Part shown: one piece after another, positions 561 to 59,840 of the stretch
Numbering within the stretch: position 1 is the first letter of the stretch
Layout of the letters: every line of letters begins with the position of its first letter
Source: Exiguobacterium sibiricum 7-3
GTDB taxonomy: Bacteria; Bacillota; Bacilli; Exiguobacteriales; Exiguobacteriaceae
DNA length: 64,000 nt
Assembly (NCBI RefSeq): GCF_000620865.1
Contig: NZ_KK211190.1
Span: forward strand, 323,971-387,970
Direction of reading: 5' to 3'
Notes under the pieces: model-generated
What the model was told of the DNA's origin: nothing
Seen by the model: the letters and a program-made list of their open reading frames with translations, nothing else
Databases searched by the model: none
Translations under genes and position numbers: made by a program

Positions 561-1208
561 ATGAGATTTTTTATCGACACAGCAAACGTAGAGGATATTA
601 AAAAAGCACATAAAATGGGGATTTTGGATGGGGTCACCACAAACCCGTCACTCGTCGCAAAAGAAGGCGTCGATTTCCATACACGCCTGCGTGAAATCTG
701 TGAGATCGTCGGAGACGTCTCCGTCAGTGCCGAAGTCATTGCCCTCGATGCAGAAGGAATGATCCGGGAAGGGAAGGAACTTGCTCAGATTGCACCGAAC
801 ATTACTGTAAAGGTTCCGATGACACCGGCAGGACTCGAAGCCGTTGCAGCACTTTCGAAAGAAAACATCACGACGAACGTCACATTGATCTTTAATCCGA
901 ACCAAGCCCTGCTCGCAGCGCGTGCAGGTGCGACATACGTATCACCGTTCCTCGGTCGTCTGGATGATATCGGTCAAGATGGGATGGGACTGGTCGAAAC
1001 GATTGCTCAAATCTTCGTCATTCATGATATTCCGACACAAATCATCGCGGCTTCTGTCCGTAATCCGGTGCACGTCACGAATGCGGCACTCGCTGGGGCT
1101 GACATCGCGACGATTCCGCTCAATGTCATTGAGTCACTGACGCAACACCCGTTAACGACGCAAGGAATCGAACGTTTCCTCGCGGACTGGGAAAAAGCGC
1201 AGCAATAA
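561..1208 (+). CDS. fsa: Transaldolase / fructose-6-phosphate aldolase family (TalC type)
   Basis: A cytoplasmic small transaldolase of 215 aa, the usual length of the MipB/TalC subfamily. It transfers dihydroxyacetone units in the non-oxidative pentose phosphate pathway, or cleaves fructose-6-phosphate in the FSA branch. Visible are the opening MRFFIDTA with Asp6, TTNPS at 26-30 and the Schiff-base lysine Lys84 in TVKVP. An AGAGAGAG-type ribosome binding site precedes the ATG. It follows fbaA and leads the cluster with a MurA paralogue and glpX, as ywjH does in B. subtilis. Whether the main activity is transaldolase or FSA cannot be told from sequence alone. Confidence 0.95.
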
Positions 1209-1235
1209 AAGATTGTAGAGAAAGGTTGATGGAAT

Positions 1236-2483
1236 GTGGACATTTTGCATATCGTAGGACAACAGCGTCTTGAAGGAACCGTCATGATCAGTGGATCGAA
1301 ACAGAGTGCGATTCCGTGTCTCGCGGCAGCATTGCTGACCGATCAACAGGTCATTCTTGAGGGGGTACCGGACATTGGCGACGTTGCGACGATGATCCAA
1401 ATCATTGAGATGCTTGGAGCTGTCGTAACACGTCAAGGCGATATGGTGACGATTGACCCGAGTCATGTCGAACCGATGCCGCTCACAGGAGCAGATACAC
1501 GGAAGTTACGTGGATCGATTTACCTGATGAGTGTCCTCGCGGCACGATTCAAACAGGGGGTCGTCGGTCTGCCCGGTGGTTATGCCATCGGTCCTCGGCC
1601 GATTGATTTACACATCAAGGCATTAGAACGACTTGGTGTCGAGATGCGAAATGAACAAGGGGTTTACTACATGCATGTCGAAGAGTTGAAGGGAAACCGG
1701 ATTTATTTGGACCTTCCTTCATTCGGTGCGACAATCAGTGCTTTACTGGTCGCCGTCATGGCGGAAGGAACGACGGTCATTGAAAATGCAGCGTGTGATC
1801 CGGAAGTCATCGACGTCAGTACGATGTTGACGAACATGGGTGCGAGTGTCAAAGGTGCAGGGACCGATGAAATTCGAATCAAAGGCGTCAAGACGCTTCA
1901 AGGATGCCACCACACCTTGATTCCCGATCGAATGGAAGCAGGTACGTTCCTGGCAATGGGAGCAGTCCTCGGCCGTGTGACGGTCGATAATGTCATTCCG
2001 TTACATCTTGAAAGCATCATTCAAAAGCTGGAACGATTCGGGGCCAACATCGAGCAGGGAGATGATTCGGTCACGGCATCCATCGATATGGCGAAACCGA
2101 TTGACGTTCGGGTCTTTCATTACGGTGGATTTCCGAGCGATCTTCAACCAATCATCTCGGCTGTCCTGTTGAAACCGAAAGGCGCGAGTGTCGTCGTCGA
2201 TAAGTTATATCCTCAACGTTTCCGGCACGTCCAGGAAATGCGGCGGTTGAATGGACGAATTACCCACGAAGACGCTTCGATCATCATCCGTGGCGGTGAA
2301 GCGTTGCGTGGCACGGAAATTGAAGCCCATGATCCACGTGGTGCAGCAGCACTCGTGTTAAGTGGAATGCTTGCTTCCGGTGAGACGTCATTACACCATG
2401 CAGAAGTACTTGATCAAAGCTATGAACAGTTCGTCGAGAAGTTAAAAGGACTCGGGGCTCTTGTTTGGCGCGAAACGGTTTAA
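1236..2483 (+). CDS. MurA-family paralogue lacking the catalytic cysteine
   Basis: A 415-aa member of the enolpyruvyl transferase family and positional equivalent of B. subtilis murAB (murZ). MurA transfers enolpyruvate from PEP to UDP-GlcNAc, the first committed step of peptidoglycan synthesis. The start is GTG with AGAGAAAGG upstream; no in-frame ATG lies near. Family landmarks remain: Lys22, GPRPID with the conserved Arg, GFPSDLQ and DPRGAA. Two active-site positions differ: the residue after Lys22 is Gln instead of Asn, and the loop LPGGYAIGPRP has Tyr116 where MurA has its catalytic Cys. The canonical enzyme is encoded at 57383-58687 and keeps both. The paralogue may therefore be slow, altered or regulatory; fosfomycin, which alkylates that Cys, should not attack it covalently there. 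Confidence 0.93.
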   Translation: MDILHIVGQQRLEGTVMISGSKQSAIPCLAAALLTDQQVILEGVPDIGDVATMIQIIEMLGAVVTRQGDMVTIDPSHVEPMPLTGADTRKLRGSIYLMSVLAARFKQGVVGLPGGYAIGPRPIDLHIKALERLGVEMRNEQGVYYMHVEELKGNRIYLDLPSFGATISALLVAVMAEGTTVIENAACDPEVIDVSTMLTNMGASVKGAGTDEIRIKGVKTLQGCHHTLIPDRMEAGTFLAMGAVLGRVTVDNVIPLHLESIIQKLERFGANIEQGDDSVTASIDMAKPIDVRVFHYGGFPSDLQPIISAVLLKPKGASVVVDKLYPQRFRHVQEMRRLNGRITHEDASIIIRGGEALRGTEIEAHDPRGAAALVLSGMLASGETSLHHAEVLDQSYEQFVEKLKGLGALVWRETV

Positions 2484-2514: not shown

Positions 2515-3480
2515 ATGGAGAGAAGTTTATCAATGGAACTCGTACGCGTAACGGAGGCAGCAGCACTGGCTTCGGCACGCTGGATGGGGAAGGGCTTGAA
2601 AAACGAGGCAGATGACGCAGCAACAAGCGCCATGCGTGATGTGTTTGATACGATCCCGATGAAAGGAACGGTCGTCATCGGCGAAGGAGAAATGGATGAG
2701 GCGCCGATGCTTTATATCGGTGAGAAACTCGGAAATGGATACGGACCACGTCTTGACGTCGCCGTCGACCCACTTGAAGGCACGAACATCGTCGCCAAAG
2801 GAACATGGGGTGCGCTCGCAGTTCTTGCGGTCGCGGATGCAGGAGACTTATTACATGCACCGGATATGTACATGGATAAGATTGCTGTCGGACCGGAAGC
2901 AGCGGGACACGTCAGCTTGGATGCGACGATTGAAGAAAACATCGCTGCCGTCGCTAAAGCAAAGAATAAAGAAATCGAAGATGTCGTCGTCTCGATTCTC
3001 GACCGGGAACGTCATGAAGAAATCATTCAACGGATTCGCGCAACAGGGGCACGGATTCGTCTGATTGGTGACGGAGATGTCGCAGCAGCCATCAATACGG
3101 CTTTCCCGCATACAGGGATCGATATTCTACTCGGTTCAGGCGGGGCGCCGGAAGGTGTTCTGGCAGCCGTTGCTTTAAAATGTCTCGGCGGGGAACTTCA
3201 AGGCCGACTCTTACCGGCAGATGAAGCGGAAGTCGCACGATGCAAGAAGATGGGGATTGAAGACCCGTCGAAAATCCTCATGATGGATGACCTTGTCACG
3301 GGCGATGACTGTATCTTTGCAGCAACCGGTGTCACGGACAGTGAGTTGATGAAAGGTGTTCAATTTAGCGCGCAAGGCGGTCAAACACACTCTGTCGTCA
3401 TGCGGGCGAAATCGGGAACGGTTCGTTTTGTCGAAGGGATTCACTCGTTCAAGAAAAAACCAAAGCTCGTTATTAAGTAA
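2515..3480 (+). CDS. glpX: Class II fructose-1,6-bisphosphatase GlpX
   Basis: A metal-dependent cytoplasmic phosphatase of 321 aa that hydrolyses fructose-1,6-bisphosphate to fructose-6-phosphate in gluconeogenesis. The N-terminus [20 protein letters not shown] is the GlpX signature. GEGEMDEAP (56-64) and DPLEGT (85-90) supply metal and phosphate ligands, and GSGGAPEG lies near residue 210. GGAGAGGGGATT provides the ribosome binding site. It sits 31 bases after the MurA paralogue and is the last gene of the fsa cluster, ending at a strong terminator. The order matches murAB-glpX (ywjI) in B. subtilis. Confidence 0.97.
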
Positions 3481-3937: not shown

Positions 3938-4087
3938 AAATCTTGTAGACTGTACGCGACTCCTACAGGAAAAGCGCAGGTTCACCGCGCGTCAGAAACA
4001 AACGAGACCCGGATACTTGTCCGTTTCAGGACAAAGAAGCCGCGGCTCGTGTTTCGCCTGAGGAAAGCAAGTACAGGAACAAGATTT
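3938..4087 (+). ncRNA. Structured intergenic element A (two copies in window)
   Basis: A 150-base element with nested long-range pairing: AAATCTTGT (3938-3946) with ACAAGATTT (4079-4087), CTGTAC (3950-3955) with GTACAG (4071-4076), CAGG (3966-3969) with CCTG (4057-4060), a GCGC hairpin (3974-3990), and an arm CGAG/CTCG (4003-4006 with 4046-4049) capped by TTGTCC/GGACAA. The blocks GACTCCTA, GAAAAG, GACCCGG, CCGCGGCT and GGAAAGC recur in element B (59897-60039, minus strand), whose stems have other sequences but still pair. It lies between convergent genes and touches the stop codon of the SDR. No family name is assigned; similar sequences are remembered from intergenic regions of Bacillaceae. 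Transcription is not shown. Confidence 0.7.
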
Positions 4088-4865
4088 ATTCGAGAGCGTC
4101 ACGTATCGGAGCTTGCAATTGGTGTGTCATCTGAACGAGTTTGCGTCGCGAGAAGAAGCGTGTCATAAAGACATACACTGCATTGCTGCGACCGGGGATG
4201 ACAAGTGTTTTTCCTTTCATGTATCCCGTGAAGGAAAGTTGAGCAGTTGTTTTGGCATCCATGATTCCTGGTCGTTTAAATAACCCGGACGTTGCAAGAT
4301 CGGCCGTTTTGGCGAAATCAGTATGCGTCGCTCCCGGACAAACGGCTGTCACCTGAATGTTGTAAGGTGCGAGCTCATCTGCCAAGGCTTCCGAAAAACT
4401 AAGCACGTAAGCTTTTGTCGCATAGTAGACGCTCATGAAAGGACCGCCATGGAAAGAGGAGGTCGAAGCAATCTGAATGATTCGTCCGCCGCCCTGCATT
4501 TTCATCCGACGGGCAAAAGCTTTCGTTAAATGCGTCAATGCCCGGATGTTGACGTCAATCATGTTCAATTCGCGTGATAAATCCGTTTCGATAAATTCAC
4601 CATAAAGACCAAAACCGGCGTTATTGATCAAAACATCAACGGGAGTGTGTTCTGTCGCACGTAACAGGGCTTTGATTTGAAGGGATTGCCCGATATCATA
4701 CGGAAGCACGACGGCAGAGCCGCCCCGTTGTTCGACAAAGTGTTTCGTTTCGAAAAGTTGTTCGACATTTCGGCCGACCAGTAACAGATGATGTCCTTGA
4801 TCAGCATGCAGATAGGCAAGTTCACGCCCGATTCCGGCAGAAGCCCCGGTGATTAATACGTTCAT
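4086..4865 (-). CDS. Short-chain dehydrogenase/reductase (SDR)
   Basis: A cytoplasmic NAD(P)-dependent oxidoreductase of 259 aa with a classical SDR Rossmann fold. TGASAGIG (6-13) binds the cofactor, NNAG is at 81-84, a serine-rich STSS precedes the catalytic pair Tyr147/Lys151 in YYATKAY, and the PG motif follows. The Arg after the second strand (GRN) suggests NADP(H). It belongs to the DltE/YqjQ-like group by appearance, but the substrate is unknown. AAGGAGG stands eight bases before the ATG. Its stop overlaps the end of structured element A. A minus-strand terminator lies directly upstream, so it has its own promoter or depends on readthrough from the NlpC/P60 gene. Confidence 0.92.
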   Translation of the reverse strand: MNVLITGASAGIGRELAYLHADQGHHLLLVGRNVEQLFETKHFVEQRGGSAVVLPYDIGQSLQIKALLRATEHTPVDVLINNAGFGLYGEFIETDLSRELNMIDVNIRALTHLTKAFARRMKMQGGGRIIQIASTSSFHGGPFMSVYYATKAYVLSFSEALADELAPYNIQVTAVCPGATHTDFAKTADLATSGLFKRPGIMDAKTTAQLSFTGYMKGKTLVIPGRSNAVYVFMTRFFSRRKLVQMTHQLQAPIRDALE

Positions 4866-4892
4866 GATATGTCCTCCTTGTATAATAGGGTA

Positions 4893-4925
4893 GAAAAAAA
4901 GCGATCGAGCCGATGCTCAACCGCT
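4893..4925 (-). terminator. Terminator after the NlpC/P60 gene
   Basis: On the minus strand AGCGGTTGAGC pairs with GCTCGATCGCT around ATCG (11 pairs, two wobbles) and is followed by seven T residues. It separates the NlpC/P60 gene from the SDR gene. Confidence 0.87.
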
Positions 4926-4937
4926 TGGTTCGTTAAA

Positions 4938-5621
4938 TTATAGGTATGAACCCGCGCCGACAAGGCGTGAACCCCAGTAACCTGATTTGAAGCTTGAGTA
5001 CTTGACGCCACCCGTTTCTGAGTTGACCATGCTTGATTTGCTTGTCGCCATACCGACGTGTTGAATGCCGCTACCGTGTGAGAAGAAAACAAGATCTCCA
5101 GGTTGAACGTTTGAGACACTTACTTTTCTAGAAGAAGAATATTGTGAAGAAGACGTACGTGGCAATGTTTTGCCTGCTGCTTTTTTGTAGACGTAGCTTG
5201 TGAAACCAGAGCAGTCAAATCCACGAGTTGTCGTTCCGCCCCATACATAAGGAGTTCCTTTATGTTTAGCTGCTTCGCTTAGAAGGCGTGTACGTGTTGA
5301 AGATGAAGTTGTTGATTTTTTAGCCGTTGAAGTAGAAGACTTGTATGTTTTCGTATACTGTGTAGATACATAACGTGTTTTGCCACCGTACGAAATTTTA
5401 GTCCAGCTGCCTGATTTACCTTTGTATGTAAATGTTTGGCCTGCGTTTACTTTACCGACGATGCTTGCTTTAGTAGAAGGAGCCGTACGAACACGTAATC
5501 CGCTATCTGTGATCTTGACTTTCGTTACTGTAGAAGCTGCCTCAACCTTATCTGTTCCCACTGATGCAAATCCTGAAACCACTAATGCTGCTGTCGCGAC
5601 CGATGCTAGAAAACGTTTCAT
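4938..5621 (-). CDS. Secreted SH3b-NlpC/P60 peptidoglycan hydrolase
   Basis: A secreted cell-wall endopeptidase of 227 aa. The start MKRFLASVAT is preferred because GGAGG lies eight bases ahead; an upstream ATG seven codons earlier lacks this. Residues 1-29 form a signal peptide ending in VEAAS. A bacterial SH3 domain (about 32-88) with GLRVRTAPS should bind the wall. A Ser/Thr-rich linker (92-112) leads to NlpC/P60 (113-227) with catalytic Cys137 in FDCSGF and His188 in QHVGM; Asn200 sits where a third polar residue is expected. The family cleaves stem peptides between D-Glu and the diamino acid. Monocistronic between its terminator and a palindrome-bearing upstream region. Confidence 0.94.
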   Translation of the reverse strand: MKRFLASVATAALVVSGFASVGTDKVEAASTVTKVKITDSGLRVRTAPSTKASIVGKVNAGQTFTYKGKSGSWTKISYGGKTRYVSTQYTKTYKSSTSTAKKSTTSSSTRTRLLSEAAKHKGTPYVWGGTTTRGFDCSGFTSYVYKKAAGKTLPRTSSSQYSSSRKVSVSNVQPGDLVFFSHGSGIQHVGMATSKSSMVNSETGGVKYSSFKSGYWGSRLVGAGSYL

Positions 5622-5708
5622 ATGTGAAATCCTCCATGTCATTTTAAAGTAGTTTTGAAAACCGAGTTATATGATGTATCTCATTAAGTGTTTGTTTAAG
5701 CAGTGCAC

Positions 5709-57382: not shown

Positions 57383-58687
57383 ATGGAAAAAATCGTTGTC
57401 CGTGGCGGACGTAAATTAGCTGGAACGGTAAAAGTAGAAGGTGCAAAAAACGCAGTCTTGAAAACATTGGTCGCAACATTGCTTGCTTCAGAAGGTACAT
57501 CGGTCCTTCAAAACGTTCCCCGTTTAGCAGACGTGTATACAATCAACAACGTCTTACGGAACTTGAACGCAGAAGTCACATTCGATGCCGAAGCAAACAC
57601 AGTCTCGGTCAATGCAGAAGCAGAATTGAAAGACGAAGCACCACTTGAATACGTTCGGAAGATGCGTGCGTCCATTCTTGTCATGGGACCACTCCTTGCG
57701 CGTCTCGGTCGTGCGCGTGTCGCAATGCCGGGCGGCTGTGCGATTGGTTCACGTCCAATCGATCTTCACTTAAAAGGATTCGAAGCGATGGGCGCAAAAA
57801 CAATCATCGGTAACGGATTCGTTGAAGCACACGTCGACGGTCGTCTGCAAGGTGCAAAAATCTACCTCGACTTCCCGTCAGTCGGTGCGACAGAAAACAT
57901 CATGATGGCAGCGACACTTGCTGAAGGTACGACAGTCATCGAAAACGTCGCGAAAGAACCGGAAATCGTCGATCTCGCAAACTTCCTGAACGCAATGGGC
58001 GCAAAAGTCCGTGGTGCGGGTACAGAGACGATTCGCATCGAAGGTGTCGAAAAACTTCATGGCGGCAACCATTATGTCATTCCAGACCGGATTGAAGCCG
58101 GTACATTCATGATTGCAGCTGCAATCACGGAAGGTGACGTTGAGGTCATCGGTGCTGAGCGTGAACACCTTCGTCCATTGATTTCGAAAATGGAAGAGAT
58201 GGGTGTTAAAATCTCAGACACAGAAGAAGGACTTCGTGTCATTGGACCGAAGAAACTCGTTGCGATTGACGTCAAGACGATGCCACACCCTGGTTTCCCG
58301 ACAGACGTTCAAGCGCAAATGATGGCATTGGTCTTAAAAGCAGAAGGAACTTCTGTCATCACGGAAACAGTCTTCGAAAACCGTTTCATGCACGTCGAAG
58401 AATTCCGTCGCATGAACGCTGATATCAAAATCGAAGGACGTTCATCAATCATCACAGGCGGCATCCAGCTTCAAGGCGCAGAAGTCCTTTCAACGGACCT
58501 ACGTTCAGGGGCAGCACTTGTCACAGCAGGATTGATTGCTGAAGGCGAAACACGTGTCGGTGCATTACATCACATCGATCGCGGATATGTCGATTTCCAT
58601 CTTAAATTACAAGCACTCGGCGCAGATGTCGAGCGTATCACGGAAGAAACTGTTGCCATCGAAGAGACGGCAGCGGCGAAGCTTTAA
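57383..58687 (+). CDS. murAA: UDP-N-acetylglucosamine 1-carboxyvinyltransferase (canonical MurA)
   Basis: The main MurA, 434 aa, making enolpyruvyl-UDP-GlcNAc for peptidoglycan. Lys22-Asn23 in GAKNAVL and catalytic Cys119 in [11 protein letters not shown] are both present, as are GFPTDVQAQ and DLRSGAALV. Comparison with the paralogue at 1236-2483, which lacks the Cys and Asn, shows this copy to be the housekeeping enzyme, sensitive to fosfomycin. Location after ywzB fits Bacillus murAA. GAGGAGCATGAGTA precedes the ATG. Codon choice is notably favourable (many GAA, CGT, AAC), suggesting high expression. Confidence 0.97.
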
Positions 58688-58712
58688 GCTCTCATTTCAT
58701 TCCTTTATATTC

Positions 58713-58749
58713 TTGACGACTTTCTTCAAAAGAAAGTCGTCTCTTTTTG
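58713..58749 (+). terminator. Terminator of murAA
   Basis: GACGACTTTCT and AGAAAGTCGTC pair perfectly around TCAAA, then TCTTTTTG. Confidence 0.92.
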
Positions 58750-58757
58750 TTCCCCTG

Positions 58758-58766
58758 TGCTAGAAT
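58758..58766 (+). promoter_or_regulatory. Possible extended -10 of mbl
   Basis: TGC followed by TAGAAT right after the murAA terminator; no clear -35. Confidence 0.4.
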
Positions 58767-58856
58767 TGAAAGGTATGTATACATAAATGGGTTAGACGTC
58801 CAAACGACGTTCTAAATTTTGGAATAATAGCCAGTGGATAAAGGAGATCACGCGAG

Positions 58857-59840
58857 ATGTTTTTGACAAAGGATATCGGAATTGACCTAGGGACGGCAAA
58901 TGTCGTCATTCACGTAAAAGGTAAGGGAATCGTACTCGATGAGCCATCGGTCGTTGCTATTGATAAAGTAACAGGAAAGATTCATGCTGTCGGAACGGAA
59001 GCGCATCAGATGGTCGGCCGGACACCGGGGAACATCGTCGCCATCCGTCCGTTACGCGATGGTGTCATCGCTGATTTTGAGATGACGGAAGCGATGTTAC
59101 GCCACTTCATCGATAAAATTGAAGTGAGAAGTATGTTCGGCGGAGTCCGGATGTTGATTTGTACACCGGCCAGCATCACGACGGTCGAAGCGAAAGCGAT
59201 TCGTCAAGCAGGTGAAAAATCAGGCGCCAAAACCGTTTTCCTTGAAGTCGAACCGAAAGTCGCAGCTGTCGGAGCAGGGATGGATATTTGGATGCCTGCG
59301 GGACACATGGTAATTGATATCGGTGGCGGGACGACGGATGTCGCGGTCCTGTCGATGGGTGATATCGTCTGCGGTGAGACCATCAAAGTCGCCGGAGACC
59401 GATTTGATCATGATATCATTCGTGCGATCAAGGACAATCACAAATTGATTATCGGAGAACGGACGGCTCAAAACGTCAAGATGACGGTTGCGACCGTTTC
59501 AGACGAGGGGCGTCAAGAAGAGATGGACATTCGTGGTCGGAATCTCGTGACAGGCCTCCCGGACAACATCACGATTTCATCCCAGGAGATGCATGAAGCA
59601 TTGGCGGAAGCCGCAATGGAAATCGTCGAAGCGACAAAACGTGTCCTCGAGAAAACACCACCGGAACTTGCGGCAGATATCATCGACCGCGGGATCATCC
59701 TGACGGGTGGCGGAGCGTTGCTTGACGGAATCGACCAGTTGCTGGCGAAAGAACTTGGACTTCCGGTCCTCATTGCAGAAGATCCGATGTTATGTGTCGC
59801 ACGCGGGACAGGGATCATGCTGGATCATCTAGGGAAATAA
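58857..59840 (+). CDS. mbl: MreB-family actin Mbl
   Basis: A 327-aa bacterial actin that forms membrane-bound filaments guiding lateral wall synthesis in rods. DIGIDLGTANVVIHVKGKGI (phosphate 1), VIDIGGGTTDVAVLSMGD (phosphate 2) and GIILTGGGALLDGIDQLL (adenosine) are the actin ATP motifs. The opening MFLTKDIG and position downstream of murAA match Mbl rather than MreB of the divisome-linked mreBCD cluster. AAGGAG lies ten bases before the ATG. Monocistronic; a convergent gene follows after structured element B. Confidence 0.93.
   Translation: MFLTKDIGIDLGTANVVIHVKGKGIVLDEPSVVAIDKVTGKIHAVGTEAHQMVGRTPGNIVAIRPLRDGVIADFEMTEAMLRHFIDKIEVRSMFGGVRMLICTPASITTVEAKAIRQAGEKSGAKTVFLEVEPKVAAVGAGMDIWMPAGHMVIDIGGGTTDVAVLSMGDIVCGETIKVAGDRFDHDIIRAIKDNHKLIIGERTAQNVKMTVATVSDEGRQEEMDIRGRNLVTGLPDNITISSQEMHEALAEAAMEIVEATKRVLEKTPPELAADIIDRGIILTGGGALLDGIDQLLAKELGLPVLIAEDPMLCVARGTGIMLDHLGK

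Follow-up and report, generated by a model that had tools for sequence, protein, structure and literature searches.

An Exiguobacteriales orthologue of MurZ with fixed replacements in the MurA active site, predicted to be non-catalytic

The closest described relatives of the protein considered here are the MurZ/MurAB (MurA2) proteins of B. subtilis, Listeria, Enterococcus and Staphylococcus. In Listeria, deletion of murZ stabilises MurA, this effect is non-additive with those of clpC, reoM or reoY and also rescues reoM T7A, and the part of MurZ in the degradation of MurA has been called "entirely unclear" (PMC7286690). In E. faecalis, MurAA is protected when MurAB is deleted, and the complex proposed for that species is MurAA-2IreB-MurAB (PMC12077105). 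A MurAA-MurAB dimer has been detected by in-cell crosslinking in B. subtilis (PMC10090944), where murAB deletion leads to lower UDP-MurNAc and thinner cells (PMC9600426), which points to a catalytic role of MurAB in that species. A MurA protein can also act on another enzyme without catalysis, as in P. aeruginosa, where the dead MurA C117S activates LpxC (PMC9995270). In the active site, fosfomycin is held through its phosphonate by Lys22, Arg120 and Arg397, and Cys115 serves as the catalytic residue; in E. coli MurA the C115D variant is active and the C115E variant is inactive (PMC4790336). Our literature search found no paper on a catalytically dead MurZ or on the Exiguobacterium protein described below.

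The window, viz. the whole stretch of 64,000 nucleotides from Exiguobacterium sibiricum 7-3 that was analysed, contains two genes of the MurA type, and their features are listed in Table 1. The genome as a whole encodes three members of the EPT family, viz. the gene of interest, MurAA, and an aroA located beside aroB, and the presence of this separate aroA rules out AroA as the identity of the gene of interest. Its product is 95-97% identical to the counterparts from E. sibiricum, E. undae and E. antarcticum, and it reads K22-Q23 and LPGGY(116)AIGPRP at the sites where catalytic MurA proteins have the Lys-Asn pair and the Cys loop. The sequence-only reading of this DNA had described a MurA paralogue with Asn replaced by Gln and the catalytic Cys by Tyr, accompanied by a second, normal MurA, and the codons and residues given in Table 1 bear out both statements. 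The AGAAAGGTT part of the Shine-Dalgarno-like site preceding the gene is kept in both genera of the order. The murAA gene (window 57383-59840) is flanked by the atp operon and a mreB/mbl-type gene; no sporulation genes lie in this interval, unlike in B. subtilis. In another genome (G022:C13:57603-58851), MurAA is split in two frames; a contamination of 8% is listed for this genome, and the split is probably an assembly error.

Table 1. Positions in the window of the two MurA-type genes, of the neighbouring genes and of the altered codons (E. coli numbering where a residue "elsewhere" is given)
Feature	Position	Strand	Remarks
Transaldolase-like gene (tal/ywjH)	561..1208	+	conserved upstream neighbour
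Shine-Dalgarno-like GAGAAAGG	1218..1225	+	10 nt 5' of GTG
Degenerate MurZ/MurAB orthologue, predicted non-catalytic	1236..2483	+	415 aa, GTG start
Gln23 codon (CAG)	1302..1304	+	Asn in every catalytic MurA/MurZ compared
Tyr116 codon (TAT)	1581..1583	+	corresponds to catalytic Cys115, E. coli numbering
Asp188 codon	1797..1799	+	Glu188 elsewhere
Pro367 codon	2334..2336	+	Leu370 elsewhere; Pro or Ala, depending on the genus
Gln394-Ser395 codons	2415..2420	+	Arg397-Gly398 elsewhere
glpX-type fructose-1,6-bisphosphatase gene	2515..3480	+	conserved downstream neighbour
MurAA, ordinary catalytic MurA, proposed partner/target	57383..58687	+	Cys119, Asn23

The alignment that the sequence-only reading had suggested was made with 38 distinct proteins, one per species genome, from 19 Exiguobacteriales genomes of the same genus and 19 of the sister genus, the proteins of the two genera being about 63% identical. 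Gln23 and Tyr115 (E. coli numbering, which is used from here on) are present in all 38 proteins of both genera and are thus not confined to one strain. As a catalytic reference set, E. coli MurA, 18 MurAA proteins of the same order and 30 MurZ proteins of other Bacilli were used, which share 86 invariant positions, and 62 of these 86 are kept throughout the 38 Exiguobacteriales proteins. The replacements N23Q, C115Y, E188D and G398S are fixed (38/38), and the native residue is also lost in every protein at L370, which is changed to P or A, and at R397, which is changed to Q, D, K or N; the losses at positions 188, 370, 397 and 398 had been missed earlier. The invariant positions P300, L313, A134, I233 and V365 are likewise altered in all 38. 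Of the features by which a catalytic MurA is recognised, none of the 38 proteins has Cys115 (or Asp) in the PGG-C/D loop, Asn23 or Arg397, and all of them have Lys22, Arg120, Asp305, Arg91 and Arg371; S162, D231, R232, R331 and D369 are also kept without exception.

Beyond the Exiguobacteriales family, no MurA with a loop coding for PGGYAIG was found among 399 Bacilli genomes; sites with this coding potential in G177 and G341 are not MurA. A phylum-wide search with a Tyr pattern, whose match rate is not far above that of its reversed control, gave 36 sites. Most of these (all but the weaker-looking ones) were compared with a MurA profile, and matches were limited to the site in the window and one in G560, which is the one further Tyr-containing MurA that was found among 398 Bacillota genomes. 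In G560 (family f77; L185:1644-2897) the C115Y change stands alone, with the other active-site residues intact, and the gene lies in a ftsW-murG-murA-ftsQ division and cell-wall cluster; G560 also carries additional copies that are MurA-like, of which one is broken. The earlier description of Tyr at this position as very unusual is thus correct with regard to its rarity, but Tyr is not unique to this group, as it is carried both by G560 and by G784 (described below). A different variation is seen in the MurZ of family f4 (L137, L138 and L152), where the catalytic loop is PGGCNFEPRP in place of PGGCxLGPRP; the Cys is kept, but Gly118, which is otherwise nearly invariant, is Glu.

The descent of the gene is indicated by both phylogeny and gene order. 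A tree of 99 rows, made by a quick method in which long stems can mislead the finer placement, puts the Exiguobacteriales clade inside the MurZ clade, with SH-aLRT values of 100 for the MurZ clade and 100 for the Tyr clade. The order tal-murZ-glpX is seen in all 15 loci checked from both genera, and also in f17 and L075. Between glpX and rho the window has two minus-strand genes (4086-5642), for a short-chain dehydrogenase and a secreted SH3-NlpC/P60 protein; glpX and rho are adjacent in G139. The protein is 41-51% identical to known Bacilli MurZ proteins, with which it shares the fold and the presence of the pathway genes in the cell, but those proteins are catalytic, retaining Cys, N23 and R397, whereas the Exiguobacterium MurZ is without these residues and scores below the cut-off of PRK12830 (NF009470, the MurZ equivalog; 552 bits against 480.7 for the window protein, with further scores of 465.8 and 464.2). 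The protein passes the cut-off of TIGR01072, the model for catalytic MurA (440.8 against 392.7 bits), and therefore automatic annotation would name it MurA. The placement and synteny agree with the earlier assignment as a MurA paralogue at the murAB locus, and on present sequence evidence the gene is to be regarded as a MurZ/MurAB orthologue by descent that by its residues falls outside the catalytic MurA class.

The stem leading to the Exiguobacteriales clade is long (2.06 changes per column), and within the two genera the dN/dS of the MurZ-type gene is low (0.051 and 0.053, compared with 0.033 and 0.028 for MurAA). This combination indicates a phase of rapid change and, after it, tight constraint, and the gene is thus neither a relic nor an oddity of one strain; a strain-specific error or a pseudogene is ruled out by the 38/38 conservation together with the low dN/dS. 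The view that this is a non-functional relic in slow decay could draw on the long stem branch and on L370 and R397, which vary without clear preference. However, the frames are open and full-length in all 38 genomes, the Tyr, Gln, Asp and Ser replacements are fixed in both genera, and the ribosome-binding site and operon are kept, which together with a dN/dS of about 0.05 make decay exceedingly improbable. The earlier statement that the gene is otherwise intact and no decaying pseudogene is thus upheld, the predicted fold being intact as well, and the protein is best described as a predicted pseudoenzyme that is fixed and under selection.

The AlphaFold2 model shows the MurA fold, an inside-out alpha/beta barrel, with a pLDDT of 92.4, and only the catalytic loop (114-120) falls below 50. 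In comparisons with MurA structures, TM reached up to 0.98 and Z up to 58.5, and the deposited MURA2-MURA1 model 9a7b gave the best match through its MURA2 chain (TM 0.98). When the kept and lost positions are considered together, the PEP side of the site is damaged, while most of the residues that contact UDP-GlcNAc in MurA remain. From these replacements it is very probable that the UDP-GlcNAc enolpyruvyl transferase activity has been lost.

Changes of a similar kind have occurred elsewhere in the MurZ clade. In family f17 of the Bacilli, MurZ at the same locus has an intact catalytic loop with the Cys in G159, G273, G376 and G329, whereas in G139, G784, G179 and G368 (L184:4135-5436, L192, L193 and L194) the loop is destroyed in an open frame. 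The altered residues differ from case to case, viz. K22R, the loop PSLGALGWEP and R120E in G139; R91G, the loop PNGYEDAFYS and R371H in G784; K22A, N23K, R91W and R120H in G179; and N23D, R91S, R331S and R397S in G368. Within f17, according to the tree, the catalytic loop must have been lost separately at least twice; G179 and G368 join as long branches, which may be an artefact. In each of these cases, the otherwise invariant positions that have changed lie preferentially in the catalytic shell (Fisher p 0.001-0.014), a test that is to be taken as descriptive. Between G784 and its congener G376, a dN of 0.19 and a dS of 1.2 still indicate constraint. The apparent in-frame stops in the MurZ of G376, G329 and G784 were rejected, as the alignment was too long and had taken in the genuine stops at the C-terminal ends. 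Several other f17 genomes gave no MurZ-like match at all, and three of one genus (G384, G392 and G781) have very divergent MurA-like proteins, with 27-28% identity to f17 MurZ and open frames of more than 500 aa (e.g. G392:C15:192909-194210).

The reading which we prefer is that this MurZ orthologue has lost catalysis and now serves MurAA as a regulatory, non-catalytic partner, a role to which we give about an even chance. The genes for ReoM and ReoY are present in all 38 genomes, and the window's own genome encodes a PASTA kinase of 641 aa and ctsR-mcsB-clpC in addition to MurZ, which resembles the ReoM/IreB-ReoY-ClpCP control of Listeria and Enterococcus. However, MurZ is catalytic in those organisms, whereas in Exiguobacterium any such part must be non-catalytic; the effect in Listeria and Enterococcus stems from a catalytic MurZ and may depend on its catalysis, which speaks against this reading, as does the lower UDP-MurNAc after murAB deletion in B. 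subtilis. These pathway genes, taken with the Listeria and E. faecalis data, the MurAA-MurAB crosslink of B. subtilis and the P. aeruginosa data, make a non-catalytic subunit in the control of MurAA the most likely function. The resemblance to the MurA/LpxC pair of P. aeruginosa, where a MurA protein regulates another enzyme without catalysis as proposed here for Exiguobacterium, is also limited, as the former is one bifunctional MurA, whereas the latter is a separate paralogue that is predicted to be natively dead, in an organism where no LpxC pathway is expected. At the sites in Listeria MurA that contact ReoM, viz. N197 and S262 (PMC8959180), the equivalent positions here are T/A and S/G, within the ordinary MurZ range, and thus speak neither for nor against the binding of ReoM. 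The sequence-only reading had offered a regulator of MurA as one option, and this option is favoured by the lost PEP-site residues, the low dN/dS and the recurrent MurZ loop losses elsewhere, as well as by the pathway genes, the published MurZ-dependent degradation of MurA and the MurAA-MurAB contact in B. subtilis, the function itself being what we infer from them. Under this regulatory reading, the degenerate MurZ would fold as MurA, would probably still bind UDP-GlcNAc or a related UDP-sugar through the retained R91, R120, S162 and D305, and would join ReoM and MurAA in a complex presenting MurAA to ReoY/ClpCP, and the MurAA level would thereby follow PASTA-kinase signalling. The link of the degenerate MurZ to MurAA control is, in our estimate, evenly poised. 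The losses of R91 or R120 imply that the f17 proteins can do without ligand binding, and the ligand part of this scheme may thus not be general.

The retained UDP-GlcNAc contacts and the lost PEP-side residues would also fit a non-catalytic subunit working outside ReoM/ClpCP, which would sense UDP-GlcNAc or UDP-MurNAc and raise or lower the activity of MurAA or of another wall or carbon enzyme, and whose operon with tal and glpX could tie it to the gluconeogenic carbon supply. When the two genera are compared, the region of the catalytic loop and that of 151-240 rank with the most highly conserved parts of the protein, which agrees with such a subunit, as do the P. aeruginosa LpxC precedent and the MurAA-MurAB contact in B. 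subtilis. However, the tal-murZ-glpX order is common to species with a catalytic MurZ and is therefore not specific, the partner is still hypothetical, and the dead MurZ proteins of f17 have lost R91 or R120 too, and we consider this explanation unlikely, though the strongest of the alternatives.

Two further explanations keep the protein as an enzyme, and both are to be seen as improbable. Asp takes the role of the Cys in mycobacterial, chlamydial and borrelial MurA, and Tyr might similarly act as the general acid in a working, fosfomycin-insensitive second MurA, as could be argued from the retention of K22, R120, D305, R91 and R371 in all 38 proteins, from the invariance of the Tyr, which shows no drift, and from its lone occurrence beside otherwise intact residues in G560. 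The likeness to the fosfomycin-resistant Cys-to-Asp enzymes of Mycobacterium and Chlamydia lies in the natural loss of the fosfomycin-reactive Cys; however, in those organisms Asp substitutes functionally, whereas Exiguobacterium has Tyr with further active-site losses beside a normal MurAA. N23, E188, L370, R397 and G398 are altered as well, with R397 drifting among Q, D, K and N, the score stays short of the MurZ equivalog cut-off, and the C115E variant of the E. coli enzyme has no activity (PMC4790336). Similarly doubtful is a PEP-using enzyme, be it an enolpyruvyl transferase or another, that has taken on a new acceptor; such a protein is NikO, the enolpyruvyl transferase of nikkomycin, which has the same superfamily fold (27% identity, TM 0.91). 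The predicted EPT fold is intact, K22 and R120 are kept and the active-site substitutions are fixed, but R397 and the catalytic acid are lost and the UDP-GlcNAc-side residues are retained, the opposite of what a switch of acceptor would need; further, NikO has a biosynthetic cluster and a different acceptor, whereas the neighbours here are the ordinary tal and glpX. Another enolpyruvyl transfer, the other option named in the earlier reading, is thus disfavoured, since the PEP-phosphate contacts (R397, the Cys and the surroundings of L370/G398) are those that have been lost.

The regulatory reading may extend beyond this order, in that MurZ across the Bacilli would at its root be a regulatory subunit of MurAA in which catalysis is dispensable, with the Exiguobacteriales and, independently, several f17 lineages having dropped catalysis and kept regulation; this is a tentative proposal, to which we give somewhat less than an even chance. 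Where MurZ is catalytic, its deletion cannot tell an enzymatic from a regulatory role, and a MurZ that is predicted to be naturally dead throughout an order, mirrored by the independent losses in f17, would be a ready separation-of-function tool; it predicts that catalysis is not needed for the part of MurZ in ClpCP degradation of MurA. Some database entries that bear the name MurA probably do not stand for enzymes, with consequences for metabolic models and for any tally of fosfomycin targets. If MurZ is indeed regulatory at its root, then the Exiguobacteriales protein would be a natural separation-of-function pseudoenzyme at the first committed step of peptidoglycan synthesis.
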